Origin: Ectocarpus siliculosus
Taxonomy: Eukaryota > Sar > Phaeophyceae > Ectocarpales > Ectocarpaceae
Direction: 5' to 3'
DNA: 64,000 nt
Assembly: GCA_000310025.1 (NCBI GenBank)
Contig: FN649149.1
Location: forward strand, 205,681-269,680
The notes beneath the pieces were generated by a model, which did not search any database, was not told where the DNA came from, and saw nothing but the letters and a program-made list of their open reading frames with translations. A program made the position numbers and the translations under genes. Below, one piece after another: positions 10,395-51,400 of this stretch (position 1 is the first letter of the stretch; each line of letters starts with the position of its first letter).

Positions 10395-11369
10395 GTGGGG
10401 GTGCCACCAGGCCCTGCGGGGCCATTCGTGCCGGCGTTTCGTGGGGCTCAGCCCGGAGGTTTGTCTGGGTTTGATTCTGAAGGTATCGCGGTTGATTCGC
10501 AGGAAAAATGGTACCAAGTGAGCTTGTCGGTGCCAGGTGCTGCCGATATGACTGCCATAGACGCCGTTGCGATTCTGGATTCTGGATCAGGGCTCACCAC
10601 TATGTCAGCCGGTATCGTGAGTAGGCTGCAAGCTGCTTTTCCTGATGTGCAGGTCGTGGGGGGCATGCAAAACCCCGGGAAGCTGAAAGTCGCGGACGGC
10701 CGCGTGCTTGCGGTCACACAGAAAACCTGCCCCGTGCGGATCGCTCTGCACACCAGCTGGGGGCTGGTATCGGTGGACCCGCTCTCGTTTGCGGTCATGC
10801 CTGGCAACGATGAGGTGGTTATTCTTGGCAACCCGACGCTGAAGGCGTTGGGTATCGATGTGTACGAGAGCTTGGGGGCCTGTGCGCGTTCGCGCGCTAG
10901 CTTCGCGGGTGTTGAGACCGCGGCGTACAAACAATGCCGCCGAGTTACGCTTGCCGTTGATGCTGCCCTGCAGCAGCGAGAAGGTCCGGAGCAGGTCGAG
11001 CCGGATCCCGCGGTCGAGCGTTTGGTGGCGCGAGGCCCCGACATGGACATGAGCCCGGAGGAGGAGGCATCGGCGCGGTCTGCGTCGTTGGACAGCGCTG
11101 TCTCTTCCGCTGCTGCCGCCGGCTTGGAGGCACCGCATGTAGGGCGTCTGCGAGGCATCATCAGCAAGCGCTGGAATGCGTTCCGCCGTGGCTTACGCCA
11201 TGGTGACCCTACCACGAACGTCGAGCCTCTACGGGTTACCCTTAAGCCCGGAGCGCGACTGGTTAAAGCACGACCGCGGGTGTACAACCCGATCAAGACC
11301 GCGTGGCTGGCGGGGTGCATGGCGTCGCTGGTCGCGTTGGGTTTGGTGTTCCTCAACATGCGACCATGA
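10395..11369 (+). pseudogene. Element C protease and start of reverse transcriptase
   Basis: The retropepsin active site AILDSGSGLTTMS lies at about residues 60-72. The frame runs on to the RT amino-terminal motif (LKPGARLVKARPRVYNP) and stops at 11367-11369, just where RT continues in another frame from about 11350. Retropepsins cut the polyprotein. The frameshift separates protease from polymerase. Confidence 0.7.
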
Positions 11370-12255
11370 GGGTCAGCGCCGCGATGGCAACTCTGAAGAA
11401 AGGGGGATACCGGCTGGTGAGTGACTTTCGTGCGGCAAACAAGCAAGTAGAGAAGGTGCCTGGTGTGATGCCGAACCCTGAAGCCAGTATGGCTCAGCTC
11501 AGTGCGGCCAAGTTCGATGGGAGCTTGGATCTGTTGCAAGGGTATTGTCAGTGCCCGTTGGCTCCGGAGGCGCAGGAAATTTTCACGATTGCTACGCCGG
11601 GCGGCCTCTACACGCCCAAGAGGGTACCGCAAGGTTTTGTGAACGCCACGTCGTATTTCCAGGCCACCCTTACGCGCATCTTGGACGGGCTGAATTGCTT
11701 CGTTTGGGTAGACGATGTCGTGTATTGGGTGATGGATGAAGACGACTTGCTTGGCACCCTTGATTTGATTCTGGATCGTCTGGAGGGGGCTGGCCTTTAC
11801 GTGGCCGCCCACAAGTGCACATTCTTTGAGACCAGCATCACTTGGTGCGGGAAGGTGTACTCGGAGGATCAGGTCGAGCATGATCCCGAGGGGCTCAGCG
11901 GGTTGGCTACAATGCGGCGTCCTGAGACGGTTGCCGAGCTGATGCAGTTCCTGCAGGCGGTAAACTGGCTGCGCACGTCTCTGCCGCGGATGGCGGAGTT
12001 TGTGTGGCCGCTTCGCGTGTTTCTGGAGCAGCATTTGGTTGGTTGGTGCCAAGAGCCGGACGAAGCGCGTGGCCGAGAATCGCGCGATCGCTGAGGATGC
12101 GTGGACGCCCGCGCTCGTCGAAGCGTGGGATGCCGCGCAAGACCTTGTTGCCCGTGCCGTTGCTCTGTCTCACCCTCGCCCAGGTTGCGCCGTCCTCTTG
12201 TTTCCCGATGCATCCGATGAGCATTGGGGGAGCTTTCTCACGCAAGTGCCCTAAC
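11350..12255 (+). pseudogene. Element C reverse transcriptase and start of RNase H
   Basis: Carries YRLVSDFRAANKQ, PQGFVNATSYFQ and the catalytic FVWVDDVVYW (x-x-DD) of Ty3/gypsy RT. A frame change near 12040-12060 moves into the frame holding LFPDASDEHWGSFLTQVP, the first strand of RNase H with its catalytic Asp, which ends at a TAA at 12253-12255. Confidence 0.75.
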
Positions 12256-17133: not shown

Positions 17134-18398
17134 TTAATGGGGGCGCGCAACGTTATCAGGCAACGAATCAGTCCCGGGGTCACCACGCGACATGTCGACG
17201 TTGCGAAGGATCCCCTTAAAAAGGGCACTGCCGCTGTGAACTTGGAGGCACCAGGATCCGGAGACGGCGGTTTCAGCGGTGGAGTAGCGAACATCAGGAA
17301 GGGCGAGCTTGACAGGGCCAGGATCGTCCAAGAAGCGGACGACGTAGAAGTCGGACGGTAGAGGCGGTCCAGTAATCTTGCCCAACCACCAGAATCCATC
17401 GTGAGCTTTGTACCAGAAGAAGGCGCCTGCAGGTAGCGGAGTATTGGCGAAGCGATGGTCCCAAGTTGAACGAGAGACGAGCGAATAACCCGAAGGCAAA
17501 GCCCGCTCCCCTTTAGCGCGCGCCATCTCGCGGGTGGCCGCACCAATACGCATCGCCCGATAGCGACGATTCGTTTGGCGACGTTGATCAGGCGAACCCG
17601 TCCAGTACCGGAGAATGTGGGGCTTGGAATGCTGGAGGTCCATCTCACGTTCCCAAGAAGGATGAAGAAGACCTTTCCAATGCGTTTGGTATAAAACAGC
17701 GATGGTGCCACCACGGCCACGAACAGACTGATGGCCACTAATGCGGTCAACCTCGAGACGTTCGACCGGAGTCGACACGTCGTCTTCCGTAACATGGTAG
17801 GGAGGAGATTTATTCGCATAGGAGTTTAGCACATACGGTGTAAGGCCGGCAGGCAGGAACCGAGGCAAGTCTTCAGTGTCATGCGGATTAGCGCAAGGCT
17901 TGCAACGCGCAACTGACACACGGTTTTTCGAGTCCGGACCCGGCAGATCCGATGGAAGATCCAAATACAGTAACTTGGAAGCCAGAGGACAACCGTCGGG
18001 AGCGTCAGGACACGGACCCACGGCCAAGATCTTAAACGGACCAGTCCAAAGGAAAGACAACTTAGCCTTGAGGACCTTGTCATCCGTGCCTGAACGAACA
18101 CTTTGGCGAATGGTAGATTCGGTGTTGTACACCTAAACCCATCCACCGACGGTGTATGAGGGGACCTCGCGCAAAGCATCCGATAGAGCGGAGTTACGCC
18201 GCTCAATCCTCGAAACGGACAGGTTGTGCTGTTCGCGAACTAAATCGTAAGAACGACGTTGGCGATCAGCAGCAAGATCGCAATACTCAAGTTGATCGCG
18301 ATGCAAGCTTTGGTGGCCTCGAGCATATGGATGCTCAAAAACCGTCATCGGCATGCGTGGCAGTCGGTTCATATGCACCTCGTTGGGCGCGTGTGCAA
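17134..18398 (-). pseudogene. Family A integrase carboxy-terminal part with chromodomain-like module
   Basis: Begins abruptly at APNEVHMNRLPRM (about 18398) and runs in two frames (18378-18133, then 18132-17134) through LSFLWTGPFKILAVGPCPD, a GHQSVRGRGG...THWKGLLHPSWERE chromodomain-like segment and a WYKAHDGFWWLGKITG tail. It is collinear with the end of element B's integrase. An in-frame TAG near 18133 breaks it. The first two thirds of Pol are missing. Confidence 0.75.
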
Positions 18399-18790
18399 GG
18401 CTTGCAGCGTTCGACCGTGACGCGTGGTTTTGCTGAAGCTCCGGGCATGTCGGAGGGGAGGTTCAAGTAGAGGACCTTGTCGGCGAGTCGGCGCTTGTCT
18501 GGCTCGGAGGCAGCAGGCCCGACTTCGAGGATCTTGAAAGGCCCCGTCCAGTTCAAGGATAATTTCACCTTGAGAACGGTGGCATCAGCGTCGGTGGAAG
18601 CCGTGGGTCCCACCTTGGGGCCCTGGGTGATGGTAGATGCCGAGTAATAAATCCACACCCAATCGCCCATTTTGTAGGTAGGCGTATGGTGGAGGGCGTC
18701 CGAGAGGGCAGAGTTGCGCCGGTTGATGCGCGAAACGGTGAGCCGGTGTTGTTTGCACACCAAGTAGTGCCAAAAAAAACAACTTGCGGG
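18399..18790 (-). pseudogene. Second family A-like integrase fragment (A2), fused head to tail
   Basis: Encodes CKQHRLTVSRINRRNSALSDAL, LSLNWTGPFKILEVGPAA and ends at VERCKPC, then is joined directly to the APNEVH start of the neighbouring fragment. The two fragments therefore overlap in content: the same integrase interval is present twice, from two diverged copies. The 5' end fades out at about 18770-18790. Confidence 0.7.
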
Positions 18791-20151: not shown

Positions 20152-21641
20152 CTACAACGGCAAACATCTGATTGCAAGAACGCATACACCACACGAGGAC
20201 AGAAAATCAGTACTTGCTCCCGGCAGCCAACACTTGCTCAACACCTTTGACTTCTCAAATGTGGTGCCCTCTGGGACAACGAAAACTAGAACACATTTCT
20301 TGACTGGTACATCCTCGGATGCAACAGCTGCGTCCCAGAAACTCTGTACTTTAGATCCTTGCTCGACAGGCTCTGCGCCTGTATACTTCATTTGAAAAAG
20401 TACAAGGTATCATCACGACTGTCCAAAGCGAACGCATCAATCCCTGGAAAGACAAGACTGTATGGTCTTTAATAGATATCACTGTTATACTTAAAAGCAG
20501 TGTCGTTGCCCTTGAATACCTCTATCTCGTTGAAACTAAAATCCCATTTTTTTCTTTCCCCCGATAAAACCTCACTACTTGTAGCGTTGAGGATTGCTAT
20601 ATCGAACGGTGCTCCGTCGGCTCGGCGCCCACTGATTTCGAGGTGTGCAGCTTGTTCGAACATGTTGTCAACCATACTTCCTCCTCCAAGCATTCTGGAA
20701 ACATCTGGATTGCGGATAGCTTCTCCCACAAAGGCTAGCAGTTCATCTCTTCCTCTCTCGGCAATTCCTATTGCAATCGAATCACGCGTGTAATTGCTGG
20801 CGAACGTGACCGTGTAATCCTTGAAATTATCGTCAGAGTTCGACATGATATGAAAGAGCTTATCGCCGATCTCGTCGGTTCGAATCCTGTTCTGCCCAAT
20901 CGAGAGCCTAGCTCCCCGTCTCAGCAAAGCCACATCTGCTTTGCCCACCGCCTCCAATATGCCATCTTTGAGAAGCTCAAACTTTTTCGCGTTAAAGATT
21001 GCTCGTGCCACACCTCCAACCAGGCCAAAAGAATTCACCACGTCGGCACGTAGTACATGAGGGAAAACAAATCGCCGACATTTCAGAAGCTCTCCCAGGC
21101 TCCACACTGGCATGAATATTCGCTCGGAATTGGCGAGCTTCAAGAACTCCTTAATTCTTTCAAAGTCAGGCGATACTAACACAACCGTTGTGCCTGCGAA
21201 ATTCCGCTTAGGCGGGCCCTCCGGGTCACTCAAATACCAAGCTGTTGGGTCCTGGGTAAACCCAGCACGACGGAATTCGGAATACGTTCCTTCCTGTGCC
21301 CCCTCATCACCAAACCGGTACCAGTCGTCCTCTAGTTGAAACACAACAGTTTTCCCTTCGCAGCGAAGCAGGTACAGAAGATAGTATCCGAACGTCGACT
21401 TGCCGATTCCGGGAGTGCCAGTGACCACAACATCCTGCACTTTACCGCTCAAGATGAGGTCTGCCATTTCCTTGTAACAATGACGGATGAACAGCTTGGA
21501 TCCCAAGTCACTGTTGCCGAGGAAGAAAGTGCCGTTTGCGAGTTCCAGAGTGTCCTCAGTTACCACGGCTCCGGTTAATGCCGCCGCAAAATCCGATACG
21601 TTCTTATTGGCTGCAACGGGAAGACGATAAAAGACGGCCAT
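20152..21641 (-). pseudogene. Crinkler/RHS-like P-loop NTPase, broken at the 3' end
   Basis: The likely start is the ATG at 21641 in a good context (GCC ATG G); the open frame extends further upstream but with non-coding character. From that start, 390 residues run to a TAA at 20469-20471. A Walker A motif GTPGIGKST lies at residues 75-83, preceded by GTFFLGNSDLGSKLFIRHCY and followed by YYLLYLLRCEGKTVVFQLE, a layout typical of Crinkler/retrotransposon-hot-spot type NTPases. Beyond the TAA, the same frame continues with FPGIDAFALDSRDDTLYFF. After a one-base frame change next to a T run (about 20392) it continues with MKYTGAEPVEQGSKVQSFWD and VLVFVVPEGTTFEK, the usual end of this family. One stop plus one frameshift point to a pseudogene; short introns are an alternative, though none fits phase well. 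In oomycetes relatives are effectors; here no role can be assigned. Confidence 0.7.
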
Positions 21642-22953
21642 GGCGAAATAGAAAAGTGTTGGACAGCTTTGATGAGCAACATTATTCCGCCGGCGAAGTC
21701 GATTACAGCAATCGCACAAAAGAAAAATGACGGGCATCTGCATCAAGCATATACAGCCTGACTGGCCCTGCTTCGCCAACGTCAAGAGACATGAACATCT
21801 CAAAAAGCTCGTCAACAAATGAAGATGAGCATGAAAGATAAGAAGGACTTCCAAGATCCGAACGCATGCCATGCTTACTGACCAAACTCACTTTCGAGCA
21901 AGTTCGGTGACATTGAAAGCACGCCCAACACACACGGGTAGAATGCCCGTGTATGAAAAAGGCTAAGGACACCGCTTTTGAAGCGCAGAGCACGAAACAC
22001 CCTACATTGAGTTAACCCTACATTGAGTTTACGGCAAGAGACAGGAGCGAATATCGCGAACCCGTCCTTGTGGAAATCGCAAGGGGGCAACGGAAGAGCC
22101 CAGCACAGGGTTGGACAGGCAGCCGTTGTGGCTGCACTACTCCTACCGAAGCACCTGCTCCCTTGCAATACCTTGCAATAAATCGCAATACATGCGACCC
22201 ATATCTGTGTACCGGAACCAGCAAACATCCCCGGAGTCGGGTCTCACAAAGTTGGCATTCTTTTCAAACGTTCCAAAATTTCATCGCATCCTAACAATGC
22301 GTCCGTCCGCGAGGATCTGCTGAAAGACTACATTCATACAAAGATTGTTGTCAAAGGTTGTTGTGAAATCACGTGCCACGAGCGCCCTTTCCTCCTGCAG
22401 CCACATTCATGTGACGGCGTGTCGTCACAATCAACATTTGAAAAAGCACCGGCACAAAGACAGCTTCAAAAGAGACACAAGCAAGTGCTCTCCGAAGGGA
22501 GGGCGTGAGGAAGGCTGTGGGTGCATGTGCTCAAAATTCTTGAGCAGCTCATTTAACTCTTCTGTCAAGAAAGCACGATCCCCCGAAAACCTGCTCGGCG
22601 TACACAACCAGAGTGGAACTACCGTATATGACACAGGATAACACACCCCCTTGGCCGTTTTTCAAAGCTCGATTTCTCAACAGCAGGAAGAGTCACAGCG
22701 CCGAAAACGGCGGCGTTGGAACCGTCTCGTCGAGAGCTGTTCGAAAACGTATTGTTTCATTTATGCATCCTCTTCGTCGTGGAGTAATCGAGCTTTGAAA
22801 ATCGGTCCAGGGGGTGTGTTATCTTGTGTCATATACGGTAAGCATGCGGTGACTTTTAGACCGCAGGCGTTCGCCAAGACAGTAGTGCTTCGATTGTTTT
22901 GCGGTATGCTGTCAATTTTCCTTCCCGGCAAACAAATGACCACGAGGGTACAT
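21642..22953. other. Between CRN-like pseudogene and SINE; no clear exon
   Basis: Possible - strand coding scraps (FVDELFEMFMSLDVGEAGPV near 21800; FLTEELNELLKNFEH near 22545) could be exons linking 23533-24172 to 20152-21641. Splice borders could not be settled. Confidence 0.3.
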
Positions 22954-33555: not shown

Positions 33556-36500
33556 CTACTCTTGCTCCAGCGCGGCGCCGAGACCGTCGGAGCTGGCGTC
33601 ACAGCAAAGACGTAAAGGGCGTGTACCGTCCGCAATAGCGTCCCAATCAGGAAACACTAAAATGGGCGGTTTCGCGAGCTCAGCCAGTAGGCTGCGAACA
33701 GTTGTTTCCATGTCGCTCGTGAAAGCGAAGGGAACATCTTTTTTGAGCAAGTGCGTAATGGACTTCACACGCTTGGCCATGTCTCTGAGGAAACGTCGGT
33801 AGTAGCTCAGACCACCCGTGAGTGACCTGAGTTGCTTGACGGTCGTCGGCATGGGCATACCTGCCAGGGCGGCTACTTTACGGGCGTTGGGGAGGACACC
33901 TTTCGAAGATATGGTGTTCCCCAAGAAGTCAGCCTTGGTGGTACCGATGGTGGCTTTCGAGGGAGAAAGTTTGAGGTCGTACTTTCTCAACCGTTCGAAG
34001 AGCGTGCGCATATTACGGACATGCTGCAGTGGGCCTTCGTCAAAAACAACGACGTCATCGAGGTATGCCTCGACTCCATCGAGTCCTTTGATTACTTCGT
34101 TAATCACTTTTACAAAGTGGCCTGCGGATTGGCTAGCACCCATCGGCATGCGGAGCCATTCGAACAAACGAGTGGGGGTCGCAAAAGCCGTAAGGGGGAT
34201 AGTGTCCTTGTGGACAGTGATCTGGTGGAAAGAACCCGTGAAATCGAATAACGAGAAAATCGAACCTCTGTTGAGTTTCGTTAGAATCTCGTCGACTCGG
34301 GGGATGGGAAGTTGACCAAAGCTGCTGATATGGTTCAACTTTCGGTAGTTAACCGTGATGCGTATTCCACCAGACTTCTTTGGTATAACCGCGATGGGGC
34401 TGGAATAAGGAGAGGTCGAGTGCTGAATTAGGCCAGCAGCTAGATACTGGTCCAAAATGGCATCGACTTGCTTCGCAACCAAAGGATTCATACGGTACGG
34501 TTTGGACGTCACCGGGGGACAATCCGGAGGTACTTTGATCTCAAACGGCATCAGGGAACAGGACCCTAAATCCGTCGAGGATGTGGAAAACACGTCTTGG
34601 AAATTATGCCAAAGATCACCAAGTTCTGTGATGACCTCTGGTGACCAACCAGGACCGTGTAAATCAAACTTAACCAACTTCAGGTGAGGCGGCAAGCGAT
34701 TCCACAATGACTCAAAGCTAACTCGCTGTTCAGCGCTCAACCGCTCCATCACATGCTGTGGTGGCGGCGAGGGCGAAGTGTGAGCGGGGGCAGGGGCCGC
34801 AGGGGGTGATTTCCCTGGGTCCGGCACAGGAGGATCGGTGGATCGTAGGTTGTGCACGAAGGGATCGTGGCAACGCACCTGCGGATCGACGGTCCTGTCC
34901 GCGTTATCCTCGGTAGAACCCAAAATAGGTCCAGGCACCGAACATGAAGTGTCAGCTTCGTCACTAAACTGTTGTTCTAAATGCTCTACCGGGACGCGCA
35001 TCAGCGGGGCGGCAGCAGTACCGAGCAAGTCTCCTGGCTCAAGTTCTGCAGCGCCCGCGAGCGGCACAAACTGACGTCCGTCGGAGACAAAGATCTCTTC
35101 GTTCGACGAAACATCAGGCAACATGTCGACAAGGTATTGACCGGTCAGAGCCGGTGTACCGTTGGAACGCACCAAGTTGACTTCAATCATTTGGTGGTCG
35201 TCTGACAATGAAGTACCCGTTGGCCCTGCATAACGGAGCTGGAATTGGTCCGCCGGGGCTGTGAAATCGGGCACATACGCGACCGCATCAGAATCATCCT
35301 GGTGGGCAAGCGTATATTCACCAAAAACGCGATTGTCCAGTGGCCTCGGAGGCAACATACGGTACGTGCGAGTGTTAAATCGCATGAAACTATCGCGTCC
35401 CAATAGGATGGGAAACTGCATGGTGTTTGCAGGGACGATGTGCGCCCAAACGGCAAGAGAAGCCGAAGGCGTATCACCGTGGAAAAATTGCACACTCAGA
35501 CGGACTGTATCAGACGTCTGAAGAGACTCGGATTTACCAAAACCTCCCCAAGAACGTGAGTTACCGTGCGAGATGCAAGCCTCTGAGATGGCTCCCATGG
35601 CTTTGAGGGTACCGACAGCGTTGCTGTTGATGAACGTGGCCGGTGATCCTGAATCGAGCAGAGCGGCGCAACCATATTGTGATTTGGCTGGCCCAGCGTG
35701 GATTTTGACTCGAGTCGTAAATGAAGCGTCGTCAACTGTAACAACACCACCTACGAGGCAAGGACCATGCTCAGCGAGCAACGGTACACGATCTTCCTCA
35801 TGATACTCAGCGGACGTAACCGCGAGAACTTCAGCGCTGTGATCCCTTGGAACATGCGCTGATTTTATGCGGTAACCTGACGACGGGGCGGCCTCCTCGG
35901 CGGCAGCCGTCGAAATACGCTCTTGCGTTGCAGGGTTAACCTCATGTATTGTATTCCGGAGCTGAGCGTCGGACGAAACTTGTGGTGGAAGTGTCGGCGT
36001 CGGCGCGTGCTCTCGGAGTAGGTCTCGAACAACCTGCAGGCTTTTGCCAAGCAGATTGGAGCCCCGCCATAAAGAGGGTTGGATTGCAGCAGGATCATCC
36101 GCGCGATGTCCAATGCCCCATATGGCATCGAATGGGCTAGCTTCGACGAGCATTTTGTCGCCGGTGCCCAAAAGATGTTGTCGCATAGCGGGATTTTGCG
36201 AAAATTTGTAGTAGGAGGCGACACGCACCACGTTTTCACGCTCGCGCTCCCAAACAGCTTTATTAAACCCTTTAACTTGGCGTCCGTAACGCTTATGTTT
36301 AATCGGGTCAGAAACACGCATAATCCGCCGCAACGTATCTTGGTCGCCAAAGAGACGAGCCTTGGCAGCCGCGAAGAATTGTTCTCCACAAGAGTATTCC
36401 ACACCATCTACAGTAAAGATGGACGGCGTCCATTGCGAGAAAACCGACGGGGCTTGCCAGAACAACACCATGTCAGGTGTGCAGTACTCCTTGCTCGGAT

Positions 36501-37611
36501 CAAACGCTGGTGGTGAACACCTGGCGTCGGTCGGAGGAGGAGGGTAGATACGAATACCAGCTATAGCGGAGGAGGGGGATGTCTGTTTCCCCAAGTCCTC
36601 TACTCTTCCAACAGCGCAACCCGGTGGGGGTGTATAGTCTGTAGTGCTTTCGCTAGAATCCATCACGTTGGAGACATGACGGACCTCCCTTGACGAGGGT
36701 CGCGAGTTTTTCGCTGTTTGTTCAGCGAGGGGCGCAATCGGAGCGTCCTCCGAATACGGTGTTGTCAGCACCTCCGTGGTCGTGGTTGGGGACCGCTCAG
36801 TTTTGGTACTCCGCGAATCGCAAACCACGGGAAATCGACGCGTATTTCTTTCAACGCAATCGGTCATACTCGCTTCACCGTGCGGCGAGTGACTTTTATT
36901 ACCGTCTCGAGTTCCATCGGCTGTATCGCCGCAGGCTGTCGATGACCCGTACGCAGTGGACATGTCCAAAGCATCGCTCGAGGTGGCTAAACCCGGCGAC
37001 ACTTCATGTATTGTCGACAACGTAGGTGTCCTAACGGTCTTCCACGAGGACGTCTGAGCGGACCTCTTGGGCATGCTCGACAATCCCGACCTTCCGTACC
37101 CGCACCTCAAACCGACCCTTGCATTCGTGTAGCCAACACGTAATGGTTCAGGCTGGTTTGCGGGCGGCAACGTGGTGTAATCGTGCGTTGTGCAAGCTGC
37201 TCGAGCCGTGTTTAAGCTCGGGGAGCCGCCTTCAAGACAGGTCGCTCCTTGAGTTCCTAACCTTGGGGTATATTTACTGACGACAGCGCTGAAGCTGCCG
37301 TGTGTGCAAGCTGCTCGAGCTGTGTTAAAACTCGGGGAGCCGCCTTCAAGACAGGTCGCTCCTTGAGTTCCTAACCTTGGGGTATATGCATTGACGACAG
37401 CACTGAAGCTGCCGTGATCGGGAGTATGGGCTACACCATCTTCACCCGATGAGGCCGAAGCACTACCGCTTGTAGCGGAAGTGTCGGTTGTAGGAACAGG
37501 AGTGGTATACTCGACCGTACCTACTATACGCGCATCCTGCGACACATATCTAGCTGCTCCCTGTTTTGCCATCGGCGGGTCGGGGAGTAACGACAAGCCG
37601 CCGTTGGGCTG
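33556..37611 (-). CDS. pol: Element B Pol, part 1: NADAR domain, protease, reverse transcriptase, RNase H start
   Basis: In frame with Gag across the UGA at 37614-37612; the first Met is at 37596 (residue 1, 1346 codons to the UAG). A Ser/Thr-rich lead contains a 38-residue duplication. Residues about 376-526 form a NADAR/YbiA-like domain: FWQAPSVFSQW, GVEYSCGEQFFAAAKARLFG (Glu405), FDAIWGIG and GSNLLGKSLQVVRDLL match the family's successive signature motifs. Retropepsin follows (ALLDSGSPATF, about 645-655), then RT from about 1035 (KPYRMNP) with VNYRKLN, MPMGASQSAG and the catalytic YLDDVVVF at about 1180, then RNase H beginning LCCDASSDGLGAALEQE at the stop. RT and protease active sites are intact. 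Accessory enzymes are uncommon in Ty3/gypsy Pol, and the position ahead of protease means it could be released as a separate protein or travel as a Gag-Pol part. Confidence 0.9.
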   Translation of the reverse strand, partial: QPNGGLSLLPDPPMAKQGAARYVSQDARIVGTVEYTTPVPTTDTSATSGSASASSGEDGVAHTPDHGSFSAVVNAYTPRLGTQGATCLEGGSPSFNTARAACTHGSFSAVVSKYTPRLGTQGATCLEGGSPSLNTARAACTTHDYTTLPPANQPEPLRVGYTNARVGLRCGYGRSGLSSMPKRSAQTSSWKTVRTPTLSTIHEVSPGLATSSDALDMSTAYGSSTACGDTADGTRDGNKSHSPHGEASMTDCVERNTRRFPVVCDSRSTKTERSPTTTTEVLTTPYSEDAPIAPLAEQTAKNSRPSSREVRHVSNVMDSSESTTDYTPPPGCAVGRVEDLGKQTSPSSAIAGIRIYPPPPTDARCSPPAFDPSKEYCTPDMVLFWQAPSVFSQWTPSIFTVDGVEYSCGEQFFAAAKARLFGDQDTLRRIMRVSDPIKHKRYGRQVKGFNKAVWERERENVVRVASYYKFSQNPAMRQHLLGTGDKMLVEASPFDAIWGIGHRADDPAAIQPSLWRGSNLLGKSLQVVRDLLREHAPTPTLPPQVSSDAQLRNTIHEVNPATQERISTAAAEEAAPSSGYRIKSAHVPRDHSAEVLAVTSAEYHEEDRVPLLAEHGPCLVGGVVTVDDASFTTRVKIHAGPAKSQYGCAALLDSGSPATFINSNAVGTLKAMGAISEACISHGNSRSWGGFGKSESLQTSDTVRLSVQFFHGDTPSASLAVWAHIVPANTMQFPILLGRDSFMRFNTRTYRMLPPRPLDNRVFGEYTLAHQDDSDAVAYVPDFTAPADQFQLRYAGPTGTSLSDDHQMIEVNLVRSNGTPALTGQYLVDMLPDVSSNEEIFVSDGRQFVPLAGAAELEPGDLLGTAAAPLMRVPVEHLEQQFSDEADTSCSVPGPILGSTEDNADRTVDPQVRCHDPFVHNLRSTDPPVPDPGKSPPAAPAPAHTSPSPPPQHVMERLSAEQRVSFESLWNRLPPHLKLVKFDLHGPGWSPEVITELGDLWHNFQDVFSTSSTDLGSCSLMPFEIKVPPDCPPVTSKPYRMNPLVAKQVDAILDQYLAAGLIQHSTSPYSSPIAVIPKKSGGIRITVNYRKLNHISSFGQLPIPRVDEILTKLNRGSIFSLFDFTGSFHQITVHKDTIPLTAFATPTRLFEWLRMPMGASQSAGHFVKVINEVIKGLDGVEAYLDDVVVFDEGPLQHVRNMRTLFERLRKYDLKLSPSKATIGTTKADFLGNTISSKGVLPNARKVAALAGMPMPTTVKQLRSLTGGLSYYRRFLRDMAKRVKSITHLLKKDVPFAFTSDMETTVRSLLAELAKPPILVFPDWDAIADGTRPLRLCCDASSDGLGAALEQE
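37178..37410 (-). repeat. 114-bp in-frame tandem duplication in Pol lead
   Basis: The 38-residue unit (KYTPRLGTQGATCLEGGSPS...) occurs twice with few differences, 114 nt apart, so the frame is preserved. Recent duplication in a spacer between Gag and NADAR. Confidence 0.75.
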
Positions 37612-38580
37612 TCAGTTACCAGCATTATACGTTCCAGGAGTGCGGGCATTTGGGTTGGAGTCTACGGGGAGTCGGCTGTTGATTCTTAACGCCGGCTGCG
37701 CGTGTGTGGCAGACGCTGGAGCAGTACCTGCATGAGGCTGGTATGCTACCAATGTGTGCTGTTGGGCTGGTGCACTAGATTGCAGCAGGCCCTGTGGTGG
37801 CGGTTGATGCCACGTCTGAGTGTATTGTTGCGGGTTTGGAGCGTTACCAGCGTATTGAACTCTATGAGCTGGTCTGTGTGAACGGGGCCGGTTTTGTTGG
37901 CCATTCGAGTTGCGTGAGCCGTGTGTTGTGGCAGTCGCAGGCTTAGTCCTCCAGGACCGCAAGCGCTCTTGCCACAGGCGAAACGTGTCATCACCGTCAG
38001 TCAGTGCACCTAAATCTGGGTTCAGGACACCACTAGCATTGGTGAAAGGCTGCTCACAGTGTTTCATGGAGTGGCCAGACCCGTGACAGTTTAAACAACG
38101 GCCAGCATTCGCGCTGAACGCTTGTGCTCGGTCAGCTCTAGTCCTAAGGAGTGGTGTCCAAAGGGGGGGGAGTTGACGTTTGAAACCACTGGAAACAACA
38201 GCATGCACTGTCTCCCAATGATCATCGGTGGCCAGCGGCCAAGCATCGTAGCTAACACAAAACACATCATGAATTGGCTCTGCCTTAACACGCATGACCG
38301 ATTTGCCACGTGCTCCCTGGGAGCTCCAAGGCTGCTGCGATTGCGTCGTCGAACGTCCTTGAGAACGACTACCGCCTTGCGAATGCAACGGTAATCCACT
38401 AAGCGAGAGCGCAGCATATTGCTCGCCATTCTCTGCCTTAACCTTAGAGGTCGTGAACTCATTCAGCACTCGCCACATCTCATCCAGACTACTGTAGGGT
38501 TCTGCAGCGGTACGCTTTGCACCCGGAAAACAGTCAGACATCATCACAGAAAACTGGTCGTTGATCTTATTCCGTACCCC
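37612..38580 (-). CDS. gag: Element B Gag carboxy part with zinc knuckle
   Basis: The frame opens around RNKINDQFSVMMSDCFPG (first Met 38547) and ends NAGN then UGA at 37614-37612. The zinc knuckle CLNCHGSGHSMKHC (C-x2-C-x4-H-x4-C) lies at about 38,060-38,100, followed by a His/Gln/Pro-rich tail typical of nucleocapsid ends. It would bind element RNA. The same frame continues into Pol after the UGA. The upstream repeat region is in another frame, so the full Gag is split. Confidence 0.75.
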   Translation of the reverse strand, partial: GVRNKINDQFSVMMSDCFPGAKRTAAEPYSSLDEMWRVLNEFTTSKVKAENGEQYAALSLSGLPLHSQGGSRSQGRSTTQSQQPWSSQGARGKSVMRVKAEPIHDVFCVSYDAWPLATDDHWETVHAVVSSGFKRQLPPLWTPLLRTRADRAQAFSANAGRCLNCHGSGHSMKHCEQPFTNASGVLNPDLGALTDGDDTFRLWQERLRSWRTKPATATTHGSRNSNGQQNRPRSHRPAHRVQYAGNAPNPQQYTQTWHQPPPQGLLQSSAPAQQHTLVAYQPHAGTAPASATHAQPALRINSRLPVDSNPNARTPGTYNAGN

Positions 38581-39093
38581 GCAGGGCCGGCGTGCTGGGG
38601 CTCGGAACCAAGCTTATTCGAGCCGGTGAGCGCCATGTGCTGCGAACCAAATCCCGAAGTACCGGTGAGCGTGTGCTCCTCACCGAACCCCTGTGGGTCG
38701 GTGGGAGAGTTTCGCGTCGAACCAAATCCCGTAGGATCGGTGAGCGAGGGCTCCGCACCGAACCCCTTAGGGTCGGTGGGAGGGTTTCGCGTCGAACCAA
38801 ATCCCGTAGGATCGGTGAGCGAGGGCTCCGCACCGAACCCCTGTGAGTCGGTGGGAGGGTTTCGCGTCGAACCAAATCCCGTAGGATCGGTGAGCGAGGG
38901 GCTCTGCCAACCATACCTCGAAGGGTAAGTGCGAGCCTGCTGAAAACCAGGCTCATTAGAGCCGGTGAGCTGGGAGGGTTTCGCGTCGAACCAAATCCCG
39001 TAGGATCGGTGAGCGAGGGGCTCTGCGAACCATACCCCGAAGGGTAAGGGCGAGCCTGCTGCAAACCATGCTCATTAGAGCCGGTGAGCTGGG
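38581..39093 (-). repeat. Gag repeat region: 75-bp units and a 119-bp duplication
   Basis: About four 75-bp (25-codon) units at 38641-38915, carrying GTCGAACCAAATCCCGTAGGATCGGTGAGCG in one orientation at exact 75-base steps (38716, 38791, 38866). A longer 119-bp duplication follows (GAGCGAGGGG at 38892 and 39011). On the - strand the most natural reading is SLTDPTGFGSTRNPP, Gly/Phe/Pro-rich, but indels between the longer units shift frame relative to both Gag ends. Confidence 0.8.
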
Positions 39094-40568
39094 TCAAGGT
39101 CCAACAGACGAGGTTGCATTACCATGGGGTACAACTGGGTGTAGTCGTTTTTCGGTAATTTCATGGGCAGGCACAGGACGCGTTGGAGCGGCCGTTGACC
39201 GTGCTAGATCGAGAGCGTCAGATGGTGGTTTACCAGCTAGACGCCGTGACCGTCTAACAACAGGCATACTCGTAGTTTGCACGGGTGTGGGCGCAAATGG
39301 GAGAGGAGGGGCTGCTGCAGGGGTACGATCTTCGTCTACGGCGGGTAACGATACACTAGATACAGGTTCTACGTCTCTGCCTGCAATTGCATCGGTACTA
39401 ACAGGGGCAGAAGCATGGTTGCCAGTCGGAACATATTCGCTGTCTGTGTATTCACGTGATTGTGGACGCGGGTACACAAGTGCAGCGTCGCGTGCACCAT
39501 GCGCGGCACCAGGCGGGGCAGGGTTGCTGGAAGCAAATGCGCCGCTGGTGGCTTGCGGTGTCTCACCATCAGCGGATCTCAGGGTATCCGACTGCTGTGA
39601 GGTCGCAGTGGTTCTCAAACTTTGACAGCGAGAGCCATCTCCATCCATCTCCGAAACATTTGTGGTGTTCTCGGAATGCGATAAAGAAGGGGTGTCGGCA
39701 TGCAGCCGAGAGAACGTTTTGATAGTTTCTCGGGGGCTTGCGACAGCGAGACCAGGGGCAGAATCGCTCGAGGTGACCGCTCCGCTGGTGCGTTCTGACG
39801 TGCGTTCGACGGAGCTGCTAACTCCAACCGAGTGCGTGTGTGAGGCATCGATCAAACTCGTGGAGTGAGAGCCAACACTATATCCACATTCGGCACATAT
39901 CCGCGCTCGGAATGGGATGCAGCCGGGCTGGCGTCGAAACAATTCAAACCCTGAGGTTCAAACATGCCGACAGCGACAGCTGGGCTACCAGGGGCAGGAG
40001 TACTAGACTCGACCACGCCACTGGGGGCGTCCGACACGCGCACAATGGAGCTGTGAGCTTCATTCGTGTGCGTGGGTGAGGCTTCAATCAAACTCGGAGA
40101 GCGAGAGCGTTCACCATCCAATTCCGGCACAGTGCTGTGTTCGGAATTGGATGCGGGGTGTGAGTGTGCGCCTTGAACCACCGAGCGCATCTGCATTTCT
40201 GCAGGTGTCTCAAGGCGGTGTGCCACATCTGATGACCAGCGTTGAGCTGAATCACGAGAGGGCACAGACCTGGAGCGCGGCGCGCGACCAAGGCCTTCAG
40301 TGTGCGATCGTGCAACATCATCTTCCTGAGAGTCTACGTCTGCTAACGTGCGTTCGAACTGCGATCGCGATCGTGGCTGCTGCTGCTGCTGCTGCTGAAA
40401 AGTCCGACCGCGAACATGCAAGAAGGCATTCAGCGAATCCTTATCAACACGGAGCGAGCTACGCGAAGCATGCGAATCATCATCATCAGGAGTGTTGTGC
40501 GGCGACAAAGGGACCGGGGTCGAGACAGCAGAGTCGCTGCTACCTCGCGGCTCATCAGGAGCCGACAT
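39094..40568 (-). pseudogene. gag: Element B Gag amino-terminal region, frameshifted
   Basis: The likely Gag start is the ATG at 40568 (MSAPDEPRGSSDSAVS). The frame runs to about 39852 and continues without similarity loss in another frame from about 39880 to a TGA at 39096-39094. The lesion is a small indel near 39870-39885. The protein is Ser/Thr/Pro-rich with a (Gln)7 run and three diverged repeats of about 78 residues starting near 40145, 39911 and 39675. No canonical capsid motif is recognised. With LTRs nearly identical, the frameshift must be recent, an assembly error, or programmed. Confidence 0.65.
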
Positions 40569-40674
40569 GCTGAAGCAGGGCCAAGGCTGTTGCCCTGCCG
40601 CTATTCAGCAGACTGCAAAAAAGCGAAAAAAATCAAAATCAATTGAACGCAAGAATCAAGCAACACGACCAAAA

Positions 40675-40686
40675 CCAACAACGCCA
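40675..40686 (-). promoter_or_regulatory. Candidate primer-binding site of element B
   Basis: Just inside the 5' LTR, after one spacer base, the - strand reads TGGCGTTGTTGG. It starts with TGG, complementary to a tRNA CCA end. The matching tRNA was not identified. Confidence 0.45.
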
Positions 40687-40687
40687 G

Positions 40688-40996
40688 TGTAATGGTATTT
40701 GACCCCTTCCTTCAGAATCAATCACCTTTGAGCTGTGTGGAACTCTCTTATCCGACCACAGTAGCAGGTTGTTGTTGCTTTCCGTTGTTCTCTTTCTCTT
40801 GATTAACGCTTTCCAAGCCAACTCACAATATCCCACGCACACGCGATCATAGATCACCTGTACGCACACACTGAACAGAAGGGCACATGTCTCGGCATAA
40901 AGCCCTGATCTAGCATGACGTCACGTCATAGCATCCGACGGCGCCAAATAACCATGATCAACCACTATCACATGTCTACCTCCAAATACCATAACA
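40688..40996 (-). repeat. 5' LTR of element B
   Basis: 309 bp and virtually identical to the 3' LTR. It should carry the promoter of the element, reading leftwards. The outer flank 40997-41000 is AGTG. Confidence 0.9.
40916..40928. promoter_or_regulatory. bZIP-type site TGACGTCACGTCA in the LTR
   Basis: Contains the palindrome TGACGTCA plus a further overlapping TGACGT on the - strand. The same site is at 28676-28688 in the other LTR. TGACGT is the core bound by many bZIP factors, including stramenopile aureochromes (established knowledge). Use as an LTR promoter element is inference. Confidence 0.4.
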
Positions 40997-43841: not shown

Positions 43842-46800
43842 CTACCTTCGGCTCCTCCTGCCAGCGTCCCCACGGTCGTGACGCCTGTCTCCATTTCGTT
43901 CCTTCTCGCGGTCCCGGTCCCTTCCCCAATCCCTCCCCCGTGCTCTCTCCCTGTCTCGTTCTCTCGGCCTGTCCCTGCCCCTCTCTCTGCTGTCCCCTCT
44001 GCGGTCTCTGCGATTTCGACTCCAGCTTCGACTTCGACTCCGGCTGCGCCGGGATTCCCTCTCTCGAGGTCGTTTTCGATCTCTCTCTCGATCCTGCACT
44101 CTTTCAGACGGTCGCCCGTTCGCTTCTCGGTCGGCACCATCCTCGCGTCCACGTTCACGTTCGATACCTAGTGCGCTGCGGCTTGCGCTGTGGCTCCTGT
44201 TGCTTCGACTTTCACTCCTGCTGTCACTCTCCCGCTCTTGGCTTTTGTTGGTAGATGGTTCTTCAGCGCCATTGCTGTCAGGCTCGTGGACATCAGAAGG
44301 ACCAGGCGCTTCAGGAGTATTGTTGGCAACACTGACAGAGTTGTTACATACTGGTTCAGCAACCACCGCCGAAACACTCACGGAGTCACGTGTGCAGGGT
44401 TCATCTCCAGGTTGTGTTTCGGATGGAGCAGCCGCCGGAGTTTCTTCCACTCCGTCAGCTGGCGCGTAAACCTCCTGGATATTCTGCACAACCGCATCTA
44501 TTCGCAACGGACCTCCTCTCCTGAAAACGCTGTTATCGCAAAGCGGTTCTAAGAACGCCACTTTAGGTCGATGGTAGAGGGCTAGGATGGTGTTGCAGAT
44601 CTCCCCCATTTCTTGCATGTCTGCGTTGAAGAGGACCCACCACGGCGGGTTGTCAGGCAACTTGATTCCAAGCGAACGCGAGGCCATGTAGATTGCTGCG
44701 CACGCGATGACTTCCGAGCGAAAACGCAGGGACAGGTCAGTGCGCAGTGAGTCGTTAACGTAGTTCCAAGCACGTTGTGAAACATCTCCTTCAATGTCCA
44801 ATTCCAGCACTCTCAAGTAATAGAGGATGAACTTGTGTGGGTGATCCATGATGTTGTAGAATCCGAACCCAAGCTCCTTCAGGACGTGGAGCTCAACACG
44901 GAGCATTTCGTCTCGCAAAACCCTCAGCGACTCCGGCGGAATAACAATCGCCGGGTCGACGCCAATTCGCCGTTCAAACATGCGGTGAAAGACAAGCACC
45001 ACCGCCCGAGGCTGGCGTGGGTCCTCTTCGATCTTCATCGCCAGTAGCATGCACCCCATCGCTACGCTGAAAGCGTCAAACTTGGTCAAGGGCTTCCGGT
45101 AAAAAAATCTCTGAAGCAAGTTTTGCGCGGTGCACATGACTACCTGGGGCAACCTGCAAAAGGCAAACACCGGGATAGGGGAAAGCTTCGTTAGGAGTAC
45201 GGTCCATGAAAGAATGACATTTTCCAGTAGTGCCCGCCTAGAGCCGATCAATTGGAAGGCGATTCGACCACGAAAGAAAAACGATTAACTGCCTTTGAAA
45301 TATCACTAGTCATACCTTTCCACGGACTTGTGCTTTTGGTCATTTCTCTCTACTTGAAAGCAACAAAAACAAACTACAGTATGAGTAAGGTGCGTCTTGT
45401 GTCGTGGCTGATAGAAATAGAAATCAATAGCGATAGGAAGCACAGAAACTGAGTTTACGAGGGTCGGTACCCTGTGACAAAAAGAACCGCGGCTTGGAAC
45501 AGATTTTTGTACTTGTGATAGGTTTGGTTTTCCGGTGATCCATCCCCATTGGCTCAAGTGACAGTACGGACAATGCTAACCCCCACGAGCCGGGCGTATG
45601 GTGCGTCTTGCATATGATTGGTAACACACCGATAGAGGGCTCAGAAATTGAGTTGGCAAGAGTCTACGAACATGCGAACGAAGACCCACACGGCAGCTGC
45701 TTGCAGCTCTTTAGCCCATGCCAACAGTGTGTTTCCCGGCGATCCCTCTCCACTAGCTAAAGCAGCAATGACAAACCTGTCCTCTCTGAGCTTCGTGAAT
45801 GGTGAGTCTTGTGTGGTGGTTGATACAGACCGGAAGGCCATGGGACGCTCAGATATTGAATTAGCGACAGTTGAACACCTACAGTACACATCACAGTGGT
45901 TGCCTTTCCGAGTCCGGCCAAACGAATAAAGCAACGCCTCTAGTGATGCACTGGTACTCGTTTGGCCAACGTCGGAGGTTGCGAGGATGAAATGTGGAGA
46001 GATTCAAGTTTAGTTTGTAGGTGAGTCTCTCATCGTGGGTTGCGGAAGAGTCGATGGACTTGGACAAACTAGGGTAGCAGCTTTGGACAGTCCCACCGTG
46101 TCCTAAGAGTTCCTCAAAAGAGGGCAGGATGGGGCTGTCCAAAAGGATTGTCCAAAACTTGATCAAACGTGACCTTCTTGGGCAGTTTATCAACGGGCAA
46201 CAATGTAAGAGCGTGAGACAAAGTAATAACGACCAAAAAATTATTTCTCTCAAGACGATAGACAAGGATCTACCTCTATGTGCAGACTGCACGCCCGTGG
46301 GCCAATAAAAAGCGTCTGCAATTACTGTTAGTGCACTGCCGCCCTCAGCGGTCTGTGGTGTTGAGACTGGGGACTATGTTATCCCAGGAACAGCTGATAA
46401 AAAAGGACCATGTATTGTATATATTCGTCACGCAAGCCCCTCAGGCAAGCTGGTATTCGACACGCAAGCCCCTCAGGCAAGTGCCGGGAGCACACCGCCG
46501 TGTGCTCCCGGGAGGCCCCCGCACTTGGACCACAACCGCACACATACCCTCACACCCATACTTCCCATACGCGTATCCCCCACAGAGGATGCACAGATCG
46601 GACTCATATCCAAGTACCACAAACAGCCCCCCTACTTGATACGATGTACGATCTTGCAACCAATGCAAAAACGCAATCAGCAAACATAGAAAAACACCCC
46701 TTGAGAAAAATTATTCAACAAAACTGGCTACGCATCCAACACAAAGCGTCTCCATCAGTTTATTCACGAATCCAAAGCGTTCGTCTCTGGAAATAATCTC

Positions 46801-48462
46801 AAACCGTTGACACAAAATAATCATCCTCAGAAAAGTACCCAACAATTATTTGTGCTACATCAGAAAGGCGTCGGAACGAAAACGGACATTTCTGGAAAAA
46901 AACAACTTCCAAAAGAGTTGGCACCAAATCCTCAAACAAAACAAAAACTCAACTTCTTGACCAATCAAAACGAGAATTCGGAAAGCACAATGGCCCCAAC
47001 CATTAATCGTCAAAACATGTCAAACCCTTCCTCCAATACAGTGTCCGAGGACCAATTCCTAAACAGCGCGCACCCGCTAATCAGTACCGTCGCTGTTGTC
47101 CAAGAAACGATAGAAAATATAAGCAAGCATCCACGCAAACAGCCCCCCTGCTGTCAGCTCCCAAAATTCACCCCGAGCTAATATCTCGATGTCAACAGTC
47201 CCCCCTGCTTTGCCGTTCACCTAAAACACAAATAGACAAGGCCAGAAAACGAACCAATTCGATTGCTGCTCACGCCCTCTAGAATCATGGTCATACATGA
47301 CATCCCCCCCCATGATTTTCGATGCAAGAGCAGCAAAACATGCGATACAAACCAAAAACATGAAAACACGGTACACTCATGGCATCAAACTCCGGAAAAA
47401 TTCGTACCGTATGAACCTGTATTTGCAACTAGAACTCCAAAAGCTACCCTGCTCCCTGAGCCACATGCCTTCACGCACGTCAAGCAACGCGCTATCATCC
47501 CATTTCTTGCGCGCGGCCAAAAACACACCGCAGAGAGCGACCTCTTAACTCAGGACCTAACATAAAAAAATAAAAAAATAAAAAAGTATCGAAACACCCT
47601 AAGCGCACGCGCGGCCCTCCTGCTGTTGCAGCTGCTGCTGCGGCTCCTGCTGCTGGGGCACACCACCATAGCCGCTGCCGCCGGGACCCTGCCATGGCTG
47701 CACACCTCCGCTGGAACCATCCTGATGTACCACGGCAAGGTGCTGCTGCGGAAGAGGCGCCGACACGGGCCAATGGTGCGCTATCGACCCGTCTACACAA
47801 CTTGCCGAATACCCCGGCTCCGCGCTGTTGAGATGGGAGTGCTGGGGGAAGGGATGCTGCGAGAAAGGCTGGTAAGGTGGGGGCATTACGGCGTTGAGGT
47901 GGGGTGCCTGAGACGTGTTGGTCGCCGCGTGTTGGCGCGGCGGCTGCTGCAGATTGTTGGATGTGTTAAATTTGCAGTTGCGCGCCGTGTGGCCGGGTTC
48001 ACCACAAATAGAACACCTACCATAAAATCGCGGAGGAGCCTGGCAGATGATGGCCGTGTGCCCGACATGACCGCAGCGACCACACATGGGCACGGCGCAC
48101 ATCGGTGATCCCGGGGGAATGGGGGACGCCTCCTGCGGCCACGCTGCGTTCCGCCCGGGGTCCCTGGGACCACCCGGAACGAATCCCATCGCCATTGCGG
48201 GAGTGAACTCCTGGGGCTGCTGCTGCTGCTGGGGCAGCTGCTGCTGAAACGACTGCTGCGGAAAATGCTGAGGGAATCTCCGTTGATACCGCTGCTGCGG
48301 CGCCTGCTGATGAAACGACTGTTGCGGCTGATGCAGCTGCGGGCGATATCCCCCGTTGTACTCTCCCTGAGTTCCCCCTCCCCACCCCGGCTGCTGCTGT
48401 CCATCTCTACCCTGTTGTCTGCCTTGGGAAAACCCACCGGTCCTCCGCTGCGGACCACCACC

Positions 48463-48496
<34 letters not shown>

Positions 48497-51400
48497 CCGT
48501 TGGGCCGTGAATTTCCGCCGAAACGGAGAGCGTGCGGATCGCTAGCCGGCGCGGCCGTCCGCTGCGCACGATCACCGAGATTTTTCTCAACGTGGTGGCT
48601 ACGCACAAGAATCTCTAAGCTTCTGCGTGTGAGCGTGTGATCATGCATGAGAACGGTCTTGACCTGTTCGTAGTCTGCCGAGAGGCTTCTACGTAAAGCC
48701 GCAAGGACCTCACTTTCCGGGATTTCATAACCGTTGACAGCGCGAAGCGTATTCAGCACTTTGTTAAACCTCAGAAAGTAGTCTTGCGGGTCCTCTCCGA
48801 GCTGCATCTTCATGTTAGCGAGAGACAACTTCAGGGCCTCCTTCTCAGAGCTACTCATCGGAAGACAAAACTCCTGGGCAGCCTCCCATGCCCCCGACAC
48901 ATTCCCTACAGCAAGAATCGTCGATTGGAATTTCGCCCCCTTCGTGGCTCGCTTCAAGTAATCGAAAGCACGCTCATGATCACGCACACGCTTCTCACTG
49001 TGGAATCTTATGTTCTCGCTCCTGGAGGTGTGGATGAGCCAGATGCGATGATCAGGACTCGCCGGCGGAGTGAGTGTGTGCCCAAGATCTTCGCCGGCGA
49101 GGAAGACCTCGAATATCATTTTGAAGAGCGGGAAGTTGCCGTCGTACACTGGTGGCTTGCGGTCCCTGTACTGCTGTTGCACTGGACCATCTCGAAAAGA
49201 AGTAGCCGCTCCCCCGGCTCCAAAGGTGTCCGCCACCCCGGCTGCTCCACCCCTATAATACCCCGACGCGTACCCAGCGCCATCCACCCTATCTCTCGTA
49301 GCGTCCCCCGCTGAACTGCGCTCCCCTGCCTCCTCAAGTTTCCTCCGTAGCTCCGCATTCTCGGCTTGCTCTTTCTTGATTCCTTCTTCCAACTCTCTCT
49401 CTCTTTCCGTCATCGCTGTACCAACACCTGGCCTAGCTAGGCTCCATGATATCGTGTTAGTGCACTGCCGCCCTCAGCGGTCTGTGGTGTTGAGACTGGG
49501 GACCATGTTATCCCAGGAACAGCTGATAAAAAAGGACCATGTATTGTATATATTCGTCACGCAAGCCCCTCAGGCAAGCTGGTATTCGACACGCAAGCCC
49601 CTCAGGCAAGTGCCGGGAGCACACCGCCGTGTGCTCCCGGGAGGCCCCCGCACTTGGACCACAACCGCACACATACCCTCACACCCATACTTCCCATACG
49701 CGTATCCCCCACAGAGGATGCACAGATCGGACTCATATCCAAGTACCACAAACAATTACAACCATACTGCGGGACGACGGGAAATAGATCCTGCGAAGTA
49801 TGTTTTGCTCAGAATTCGAAAAGTGATGATCCCGTCCAGGGCATAAAAAAGCAGTAATTTCTCGAACGCTCTCGTGTAGTGGCCATCCGAAACTATGCAC
49901 AGATGTAGTAACCTCTCGTCATGTCTCATTGCCAGAGCCGTTGGTGCACATCCTTCGAGCACCAGAATCTCGACAGTAGGAATGTCTTCGATGGAATCGA
50001 AGGTGGTCCTATGCAGTGTATTAGGCCGTTAACTTTGCCGGTGTTGAATTGTTTGTTGCAGTTGATGTCAAATGTGATCCTCGAGATGGCGCTCAAAAAC
50101 GTGCAACCCGGACGGTCTTTTGGATAATCCGGAGTATGTATCAAGCTTTGGTCTTTCGTCAAGCCACAGCCGACGCGCCCAGTTCTTCTTGGGCTGCTGT
50201 ACGGGACCTTCGATGCAATGGGCTGTCGCGTTGCCTCGAGTTACCGCTACTCAACTGTGTTAAGAGTACAGTAAAACCACGGCGTATGAATTATTCTGGG
50301 GCGAAGAACAGGGCCGCGTTTGAGACGGCCTCTGTTTCAGTGCGACTGTGTAATCTGTGTGAGGAGCATCGAGACGGTGAAAGTGATAGGCCCACAGGCG
50401 CATCGGAACCAAAAACTGGGAGGGGCTGCAAGACGTTTTCCCGGTTCCGGCAGTAAGTAAGCCTTCGATGGTGTAATACAGCGGATTTTCAATACTCTAG
50501 ATGCAGATGGCTATACTGATCACAAATGGGTTGAGGGCACCACACAAGTGCAAATGCACAAGCTTGGTACTTGGTACTGTACAAGCAACGAACACTTGCT
50601 TCTTCCAGAGGGATAAATCACGCTCCACACAATCAGAAAACGTGACCATGCGAGACACCATAGAAGAAAAAATTGAACGTGGGCCACATCAACCCAGTAG
50701 AATGAACGCGAAGAGCCCTCACGTTATAATCACTGGTGTGCGAGCACTATTCGTAGGAGAAAGGAATAAGTTTATGTTAGCTTTATCTCTCACGTACAGC
50801 GCGCATCAACCACCAGCCGCAAGCATACTGATGCGGAGGTCTTCCGCAGTCACAGCCTAACGACGTCCAAACAGGGTCCATTTTCAAAAATGGTTGAGTG
50901 CGGCCGATGCTCCCGTACGACGCCTTCACGACCTACATCTAAATATATAGTATGCGAATTCAAGTCACAACTCTCTGGGATACAGGGGTACCGCGTGTGT
51001 TCTATTGTGATCGTACACATCCAGGATCGACTTTCGTACGGGGAGCTCGACTAAATAGACTTCCTCTGCCACCCCCCAATTTGGGAAGTACCGCATGCGC
51101 CGGAGAGAGGTGGCACACCCTTGACTACCCTTGGCCGATTCTCGTATCAGATTGCTCGATCGCTCCACAACCAAGTGGGTGCGGAAAAAGCCGGATAATT
51201 CTACGGAAGACCCTCGACCGACGAGATGATTCCCAGACTAACTGTTGTATTGGTGTTGACAATCTTGGTGGTGGAGTATGGAGCAATTTGGAAAACGGTC
51301 TGGGGGTCGGTTTGTCGTGGCGCGATCGAGGTACTTGCTACGAACTACTTAGGGAGGGTGCAATCACTTGGCGCCATTGTTCCCTGTGGGTTACCAGAGG

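Follow-up and report, generated by a model that had tools for sequence, protein, structure and literature searches.

A YbiA-type NADAR domain in the Pol polyprotein of a Ty3/gypsy retrotransposon lineage of the brown alga Ectocarpus siliculosus

The window, a 64,000-nucleotide stretch of Ectocarpus siliculosus contig FN649149.1, contains on its minus strand a 12.5 kb LTR retrotransposon (28448-40996). The two LTRs, each 309 bp and also read on the minus strand, lie at 28448-28756 (3' LTR, TG..CA, with ends trimmed by eye to these dinucleotides) and 40688-40996 (5' LTR, one mismatch to the 3' LTR), and both are flanked on the outside by the same 4 bp, AGTG, a short target duplication as expected of Ty3/gypsy elements. 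An open frame of 1351 aa (33559-37611, minus strand, as are all features of the element given below) encodes an N-terminal Pol linker, a NADAR domain, a protease, a reverse transcriptase (RT; RVT_1, 33910-34386, Pfam E value 5.1e-23) and the start of an RNase H. The aspartic protease was recognized by the motif LLDSGS (35644-35661), which lies between NADAR and RT, and by a sub-threshold Pfam match (Peptidase_A2B, the Ty3 peptidase, E value 0.079). The RNase H region (33316-33723; RT_RNaseH/RT_RNaseH_2) is split by an in-frame stop at 33556-33558, and the next frame past this stop carries the remaining RNase H followed by the H2C2 zinc-binding and rve core domains of the integrase (31390-31911, Pfam). 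A chromodomain-like segment is found toward the C terminus at 30436-30588 (Pfam Chromo, E value 0.0032). Since a close relative, protein P0001 from another record, shares 99% identity over the NADAR region and has no stop within its RNase H, we regard the Pol of the window copy as broken at that point. The domain order protease (by motif and sub-threshold match), RT, RNase H and integrase is that of the Ty3/gypsy elements (Metaviridae), and the element is a Ty3/gypsy LTR retrotransposon.

The C-terminal part of Gag is encoded by a 333-residue frame (37615-38613) in phase with Pol, which had no Pfam match and in which a motif search located a zinc knuckle of the form CX2CX4HX4C (CLNCHGSGHSMKHC, 38056-38097). 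The remaining Gag upstream is spread over several frames around tandem repeats. Repeats within the element comprise a 114-bp unit at 37189-37416 in the Pol linker and 75/119-bp units at 38578-39093 in the Gag region. Between Gag and Pol lies an in-frame TGA followed by C (37612-37614), the presumed readthrough site. An earlier note on this DNA had placed a NADAR-like domain between the Gag zinc knuckle and the protease of a Ty3/gypsy Pol, in one open frame with protease and RT. That description is correct: the three domains share the 1351 aa frame, and the knuckle lies in the same frame, one TGA before Pol.

Several other features were present in the window. A related Pol fragment at 17182-18769 (minus strand), consisting of an integrase and a chromodomain-like end, showed 62-68% identity to the element, and no NADAR was found beside it among the matches listed. 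Another reverse transcriptase frame at 11267-12091 (plus strand; RVT_1, E value 9.8e-17) was 22% identical to the RT of the element. Two 300-bp direct repeats (99.7% identical) at 46326-49754 surround a 624-aa frame with sub-threshold matches to a copia-type Gag and a zinc knuckle, an arrangement resembling the gag-only copia elements that have been noted for Ectocarpus (PMC12477816). A cyclin frame with an Arg/Ser/Glu-rich tail (43842-45284, minus strand; Cyclin_N, 38.1 bits) lies near the retroelement, and a 472-aa frame at 20469-21887 (minus strand) had weak NTPase matches (nSTAND3, 18.5 bits, under the cut-off of 27.2).

The NADAR domain occupies Pol residues 384-533 (36013-36462). A Pfam search against PF08719, the check proposed in the earlier note, gave a highly significant match (E value 9.1e-46; 156.5 bits against a curated cut-off of 35.1) covering the whole domain (profile positions 2-163 of 163), and the structure predicted for the domain, at high confidence, had a YbiA-like fold. 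All five peptide signatures quoted in that note are present as written in the translation. The NADAR of Phytophthora nicotianae (PDB 8bau), used here as a reference, is 34% identical to the window copy. Using the pocket residues listed for this protein (PMC11543638), ten positions were mapped onto the window copy, with codons running from 36384 down to 36118 (minus strand, span 36118-36384): eight of the nine ADP-ribose contacts and the nearby K75 are identical, while the equivalent of D86 is K. The position of P. nicotianae E125 is occupied by the Glu characteristic of the YbiA type, which assigns the domain to the YbiA subfamily. Comparison with viral structure models using Foldseek returned many phage and giant-virus NADARs. 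Together the profile, the predicted fold and the pocket residues bear out the identification as a NADAR/YbiA-like domain, and a chance match or misannotation was rejected on the same grounds.

A profile search of the source genome (189 Mb in 492 contigs; 150 of 230 candidates scored) found at least 150 NADAR matches, a lower bound, from which 43 loci were analyzed, the window included. The sample consisted of the window, two loci from a first search, twenty of the highest-scoring loci, and twenty picked because they were diverse or had frames of unusual length; six 3.4-kb loci were dropped as duplicates of longer loci. At 85% identity the 43 loci formed ten clusters, seven of which contained two or more loci. 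Counting motifs in any frame, and with some loci too short to hold them all, an upstream zinc knuckle was present in 28 of the 43, a downstream D(S/T)G in 39 and (Y/F)xDD in 38. In 35 loci the NADAR ran for 150 residues or more without a stop, and in 21 the NADAR, protease and RT motifs lay in a single uninterrupted frame. The explanation of the window element as a single odd copy was ruled out by these many genomic loci, and the NADAR characterizes a retroelement lineage throughout the genome.

The pocket is also conserved across this sample. The usual residue was kept at E43 in 41 of the 43 loci, at K50 in 40, K75 in 38, R79 in 41, W89 in 41, R93 in 39, E125 in 42 (so that nearly every locus carries the YbiA-type Glu), D130 in 42 and W133 in all 43. 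The ribose contact D86 varies, being K in the window and E, Q, P, Y, H or M in other loci, and the same position is variable among 120 other NADARs that we compared. In all seven multi-locus clusters the representative copy kept eight of the nine ADP-ribose contacts; in two diverged copies, L029 and L030, the pocket is partly lost. The earlier note had named as grounds for abandoning its claim the absence of a significant profile or structure match, or a domain confined to this one copy with pocket residues not conserved in related elements, and neither was encountered. Conservation of the ADP-ribose contacts suggests that the encoded domains are catalytic or, at the least, bind ADP-ribose.

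Constraint on the domain was estimated from six single copies from different lineages (6 of the 43 loci), with region borders set by hand and an upstream linker that was only partial in two of the six. Mean pairwise identity was 68% for RT, 62% for NADAR, 56% for the protease region and 50% for the protease-RT spacer, and dropped to 38% and 24% in the linkers after and before NADAR, respectively. The corresponding pN/pS values, calculated over saturated synonymous sites, were 0.31, 0.38, 0.42, 0.49, 0.59 and 0.81. Since synonymous differences are saturated, it is the comparison from region to region that constitutes the evidence and not the ratios themselves; dS was not finite for 374 of the 703 pairs formed by 38 NADARs. 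Closely related pairs (49 with dS under 0.02) gave a dN/dS ratio of means of 1.12 from few changes and were uninformative, while 15 pairs with dS of 0.1-0.3 gave a ratio of 0.74. The two of these that were inspected, L010-L030 and L025-L029, have a high dN because they include the damaged copies L030 and L029. On these comparisons the NADAR appears to be kept under purifying selection, with conservation close to that of RT. A gene fragment captured by the element and carried along neutrally in Pol would account for the broken copies, the eight of 43 loci in which no NADAR of 150 or more residues is free of stops. Such a passenger is rejected as highly improbable, because the NADAR surpasses the protease, and the linkers by far, in conservation between lineages that are saturated at synonymous sites, and because its pocket residues are nearly fixed.

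In order to compare the histories of NADAR and RT, trees of both domains were produced from 16 of 47 sequences (the 43 loci and four proteins). The same main groups appeared in both, and the trees differed in the position of L009 and in the joining of the Ectocarpus proteins. Two Pol proteins from Ectocarpus sp. CCAP 1310/34 (P0003 and P0004) fell inside the element set by both NADAR and RT, and P0003 was 95% identical over 411 residues to one genomic locus. In a wider tree, built from 28 NADARs of retroelements and 40 others, one group (support 97/96) lay among bacterial and unnamed sequences, with a bootstrap that had not settled. This group consists of the 28 retroelement NADARs together with six short ENA proteins (P0005-P0008, P0010 and P0012) and P0009; because these seven proteins fall among the retroelement NADARs, the sequences labeled as retroelements do not by themselves form one clade. 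The nesting agrees with the idea of horizontal transfer proposed by Dinatale et al. (PMC12477816), without pinpointing a donor. We suggest that the NADAR may have been acquired once, before the present subfamilies split.

P0009, from Pylaiella littoralis, is a stand-alone NADAR protein of 248 aa that lies inside the retroelement NADAR group and has a Cys/His-rich N terminus that was not seen in the elements. It shares with the retroelement copies the motif FDxxxEY ahead of the domain. Alignment of P0009 with four loci did not extend before residue 60; a looser alignment with L036 reached residue 3 and left the Cys/His-rich stretch unmatched. P0009 could represent a retroelement domain captured by the host, or a relative of the domain's donor. 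No clear P0009 orthologue was seen in the source genome (150 of 265 candidates scored). In a viral collection, three loci carried NADARs that were 39-44% identical, and no RT was recognized by eye in the ORFs of one of them, L053.

The stop between Gag and Pol recurs in other copies. TGA-C was the nearest in-frame stop upstream of NADAR in 17 of the 43 loci, representing four clusters, and in the other 26 there was a nearer, different stop or the frame was open. Within the 43-locus sample no TGA-C Gag/Pol site was seen in the L009/L008 and L010/L020 clusters. Patterns in which the stop triplet was left free retrieved TGA in all 23 matches for the window lineage (with C next in 22), in all 35 matches for a second lineage and in 51 of 52 matches for two further lineages, where the one exception contained a mismatch and where a reversed control pattern also matched once. 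As the pattern flanks derive from copies that carry TGA, and as many copies hardly differ from one another, the counts indicate fixation of TGA and not many independent events. Nine copies of the four lineages could be aligned after the stop and share GG, P and then SQD(A/V)R(V/I) at codons 23-29. The first AUG after the stop in these nine copies lies at codon 14, 32, 221 or 381-387 depending on the lineage, so that no AUG is conserved.

Conserved residues after the stop in combination with the lack of a conserved AUG favor readthrough over re-initiation, and this analysis of sequence suggests that programmed UGA-C readthrough is probable in this Ty3/gypsy lineage. Ribosomes would read through the UGA-C after Gag to give a Pol product with NADAR as its first recognizable domain, near the start of the product. 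Translation of Pol and NADAR by re-initiation or from a separate transcript would likewise fit a stop between Gag and Pol, as well as the AUG at codon 14 in the window's own lineage and our failure to find a stable, stimulatory RNA structure 3' of the stop (z between -1.24 and +1.02; five copies, three lengths). We consider that alternative unlikely, since in three of the four lineages the conserved post-stop residues lie upstream of the first AUG, and since the window copy and several others have Gag in phase with Pol. NADAR is probably made only upon UGA-C readthrough and would then be produced at the level of Pol, and we propose that it enters the virus-like particle together with Pol, where the protease may cut it out as the earlier note suggested.

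The earlier note knew of no described NADAR-bearing Ty3/gypsy family; in this it was mistaken, for such a Gypsy lineage is already in print for Ectocarpus. Dinatale et al. 2025 (PMC12477816) report in Ectocarpus sp. 7 a Gypsy lineage (e.g. Gypsy-12_Ec32) with a YbiA-type NADAR at the Pol N terminus, and propose that the domain was acquired horizontally and has a role in processing the RNA intermediate. Compared by description, the families are alike in the N-terminal Pol position of NADAR; for a C-terminal chromodomain, also looked for in this comparison, the window element gave a sub-threshold Chromo match (17.8 bits, cut-off 25.1). The available part of that report contains no pocket or selection analysis, both of which are added here, and its main text does not use the terms readthrough, stop codon or frameshift. 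A literature search returned no other description of NADAR-bearing retrotransposons, judged by title or abstract start among the matches listed. New here are the near-complete ADP-ribose pocket, the apparent RT-like constraint, the broadly matching NADAR and RT trees, and the UGA-C stop in four lineages.

NADARs have been built into other mobile or viral proteins, namely ORF1 of Tx1 LINEs in the Pacific oyster, Crassostrea gigas (PMC12477816), also a retrotransposon protein, and the replication polyproteins of eukaryotic RNA viruses (PMC9503650); both belong to different element classes, and their sequences are outside our trees. Among the characterized members of the family, E. coli YbiA (PDB 2b3w) is bacterial and linked to riboflavin intermediates, and the P. 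nicotianae NADAR comes from an oomycete and has no reported link to DarT (PMC11543638). The NADARs of DarT1-NADAR toxin-antitoxin systems belong to the same superfamily as the window NADAR but have Asp in place of the YbiA-type Glu and a partner DarT (PMC11543638). The window NADAR, with its Glu and with no DarT match in the frames of the element or in an exon-wise genome search, does not fit the BC4488/DarT-associated type.

We also searched the genome exon by exon, a procedure that can miss genes, for enzymes of ADP-ribose metabolism. No matches were found to DarT (PF14487; matched in one of 14 control genomes), which was also absent from the frames of the element, or to Tpt1/KptA (matched in three of 14 controls). 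One Macro match was found (eight of 14 controls). Four short, exon-size PARP matches, the best with an E value of 4.5e-6 and two with an internal stop, came from a search in which 0 of 14 controls matched and which therefore had no positive control. The host genome may encode ADP-ribosylating enzymes, and this exon-wise search for DarT and PARP pointed to none that would place ADP-ribose on guanine.

Published work describes the removal by NADARs of ADP-ribose from guanine, both in DNA (PMC11543638) and in RNA (PMC11833690). The reading that we prefer, with a probability of roughly 0.45, is that this brown-algal lineage encodes a YbiA-type NADAR, made by readthrough, packaged in the particle and held under purifying selection, which clears guanine ADP-ribose from the RNA or cDNA of the element. 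Inside the particle it would act as an ADP-ribosyl N-glycosidase, presumably to the benefit of the element. Points against this reading are the variable D86 contact, the outcome of the DarT and PARP searches, the link of E. coli YbiA to riboflavin intermediates, the failure to find a stable RNA structure after the stop, the 26 loci in which TGA-C is not the nearest upstream stop, and the damaged pockets of L029 and L030. An active N-glycosidase might instead act on a small molecule, for example an ADP-ribose derivative that signals in host defence or a riboflavin intermediate, and not on nucleic acid. This we regard as doubtful: the pocket is kept, Pfam and fold cannot separate the substrates, and phage NADARs have been argued to meet mainly soluble ADP-ribose derivatives (PMC9503650), but the NADARs of eukaryotic RNA virus polyproteins, which have a similar layout, have been argued to target primarily macromolecular ADP-ribose (PMC9503650), and expression within Pol would put the enzyme beside nucleic acid in the particle. 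The domain might also serve in processing or binding the element RNA, with or without catalysis, as suggested by Dinatale et al. (PMC12477816). The same may be true of SNA-3, a nematode trans-splicing factor whose function is impaired by mutation at positions homologous to the YbiA catalytic residues (PMC9303266). Retention of eight of nine ADP-ribose contacts in the representative copies of all seven multi-locus clusters argues against this role, which we consider rather improbable.

Extending the preferred reading, in which NADAR clears guanine ADP-ribose from element RNA or cDNA, one can speculate that ADP-ribosylation of guanine in retroelement RNA or cDNA is an undescribed anti-transposon defence of brown algae, and that a whole Ty3/gypsy lineage counters it with a de-ADP-ribosylating enzyme of its own, produced within Gag-Pol by reading through the UGA; we hold this to be a long shot. 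What NADARs do physiologically in eukaryotes, and where no DarT operon is involved, has been called unclear (PMC11125620). Retroelement subfamilies that keep almost every ADP-ribose contact constitute a natural experiment on this question, and the kept pocket suggests that nucleic-acid ADP-ribose, or an ADP-ribose signal, matters during brown-algal retrotransposition.
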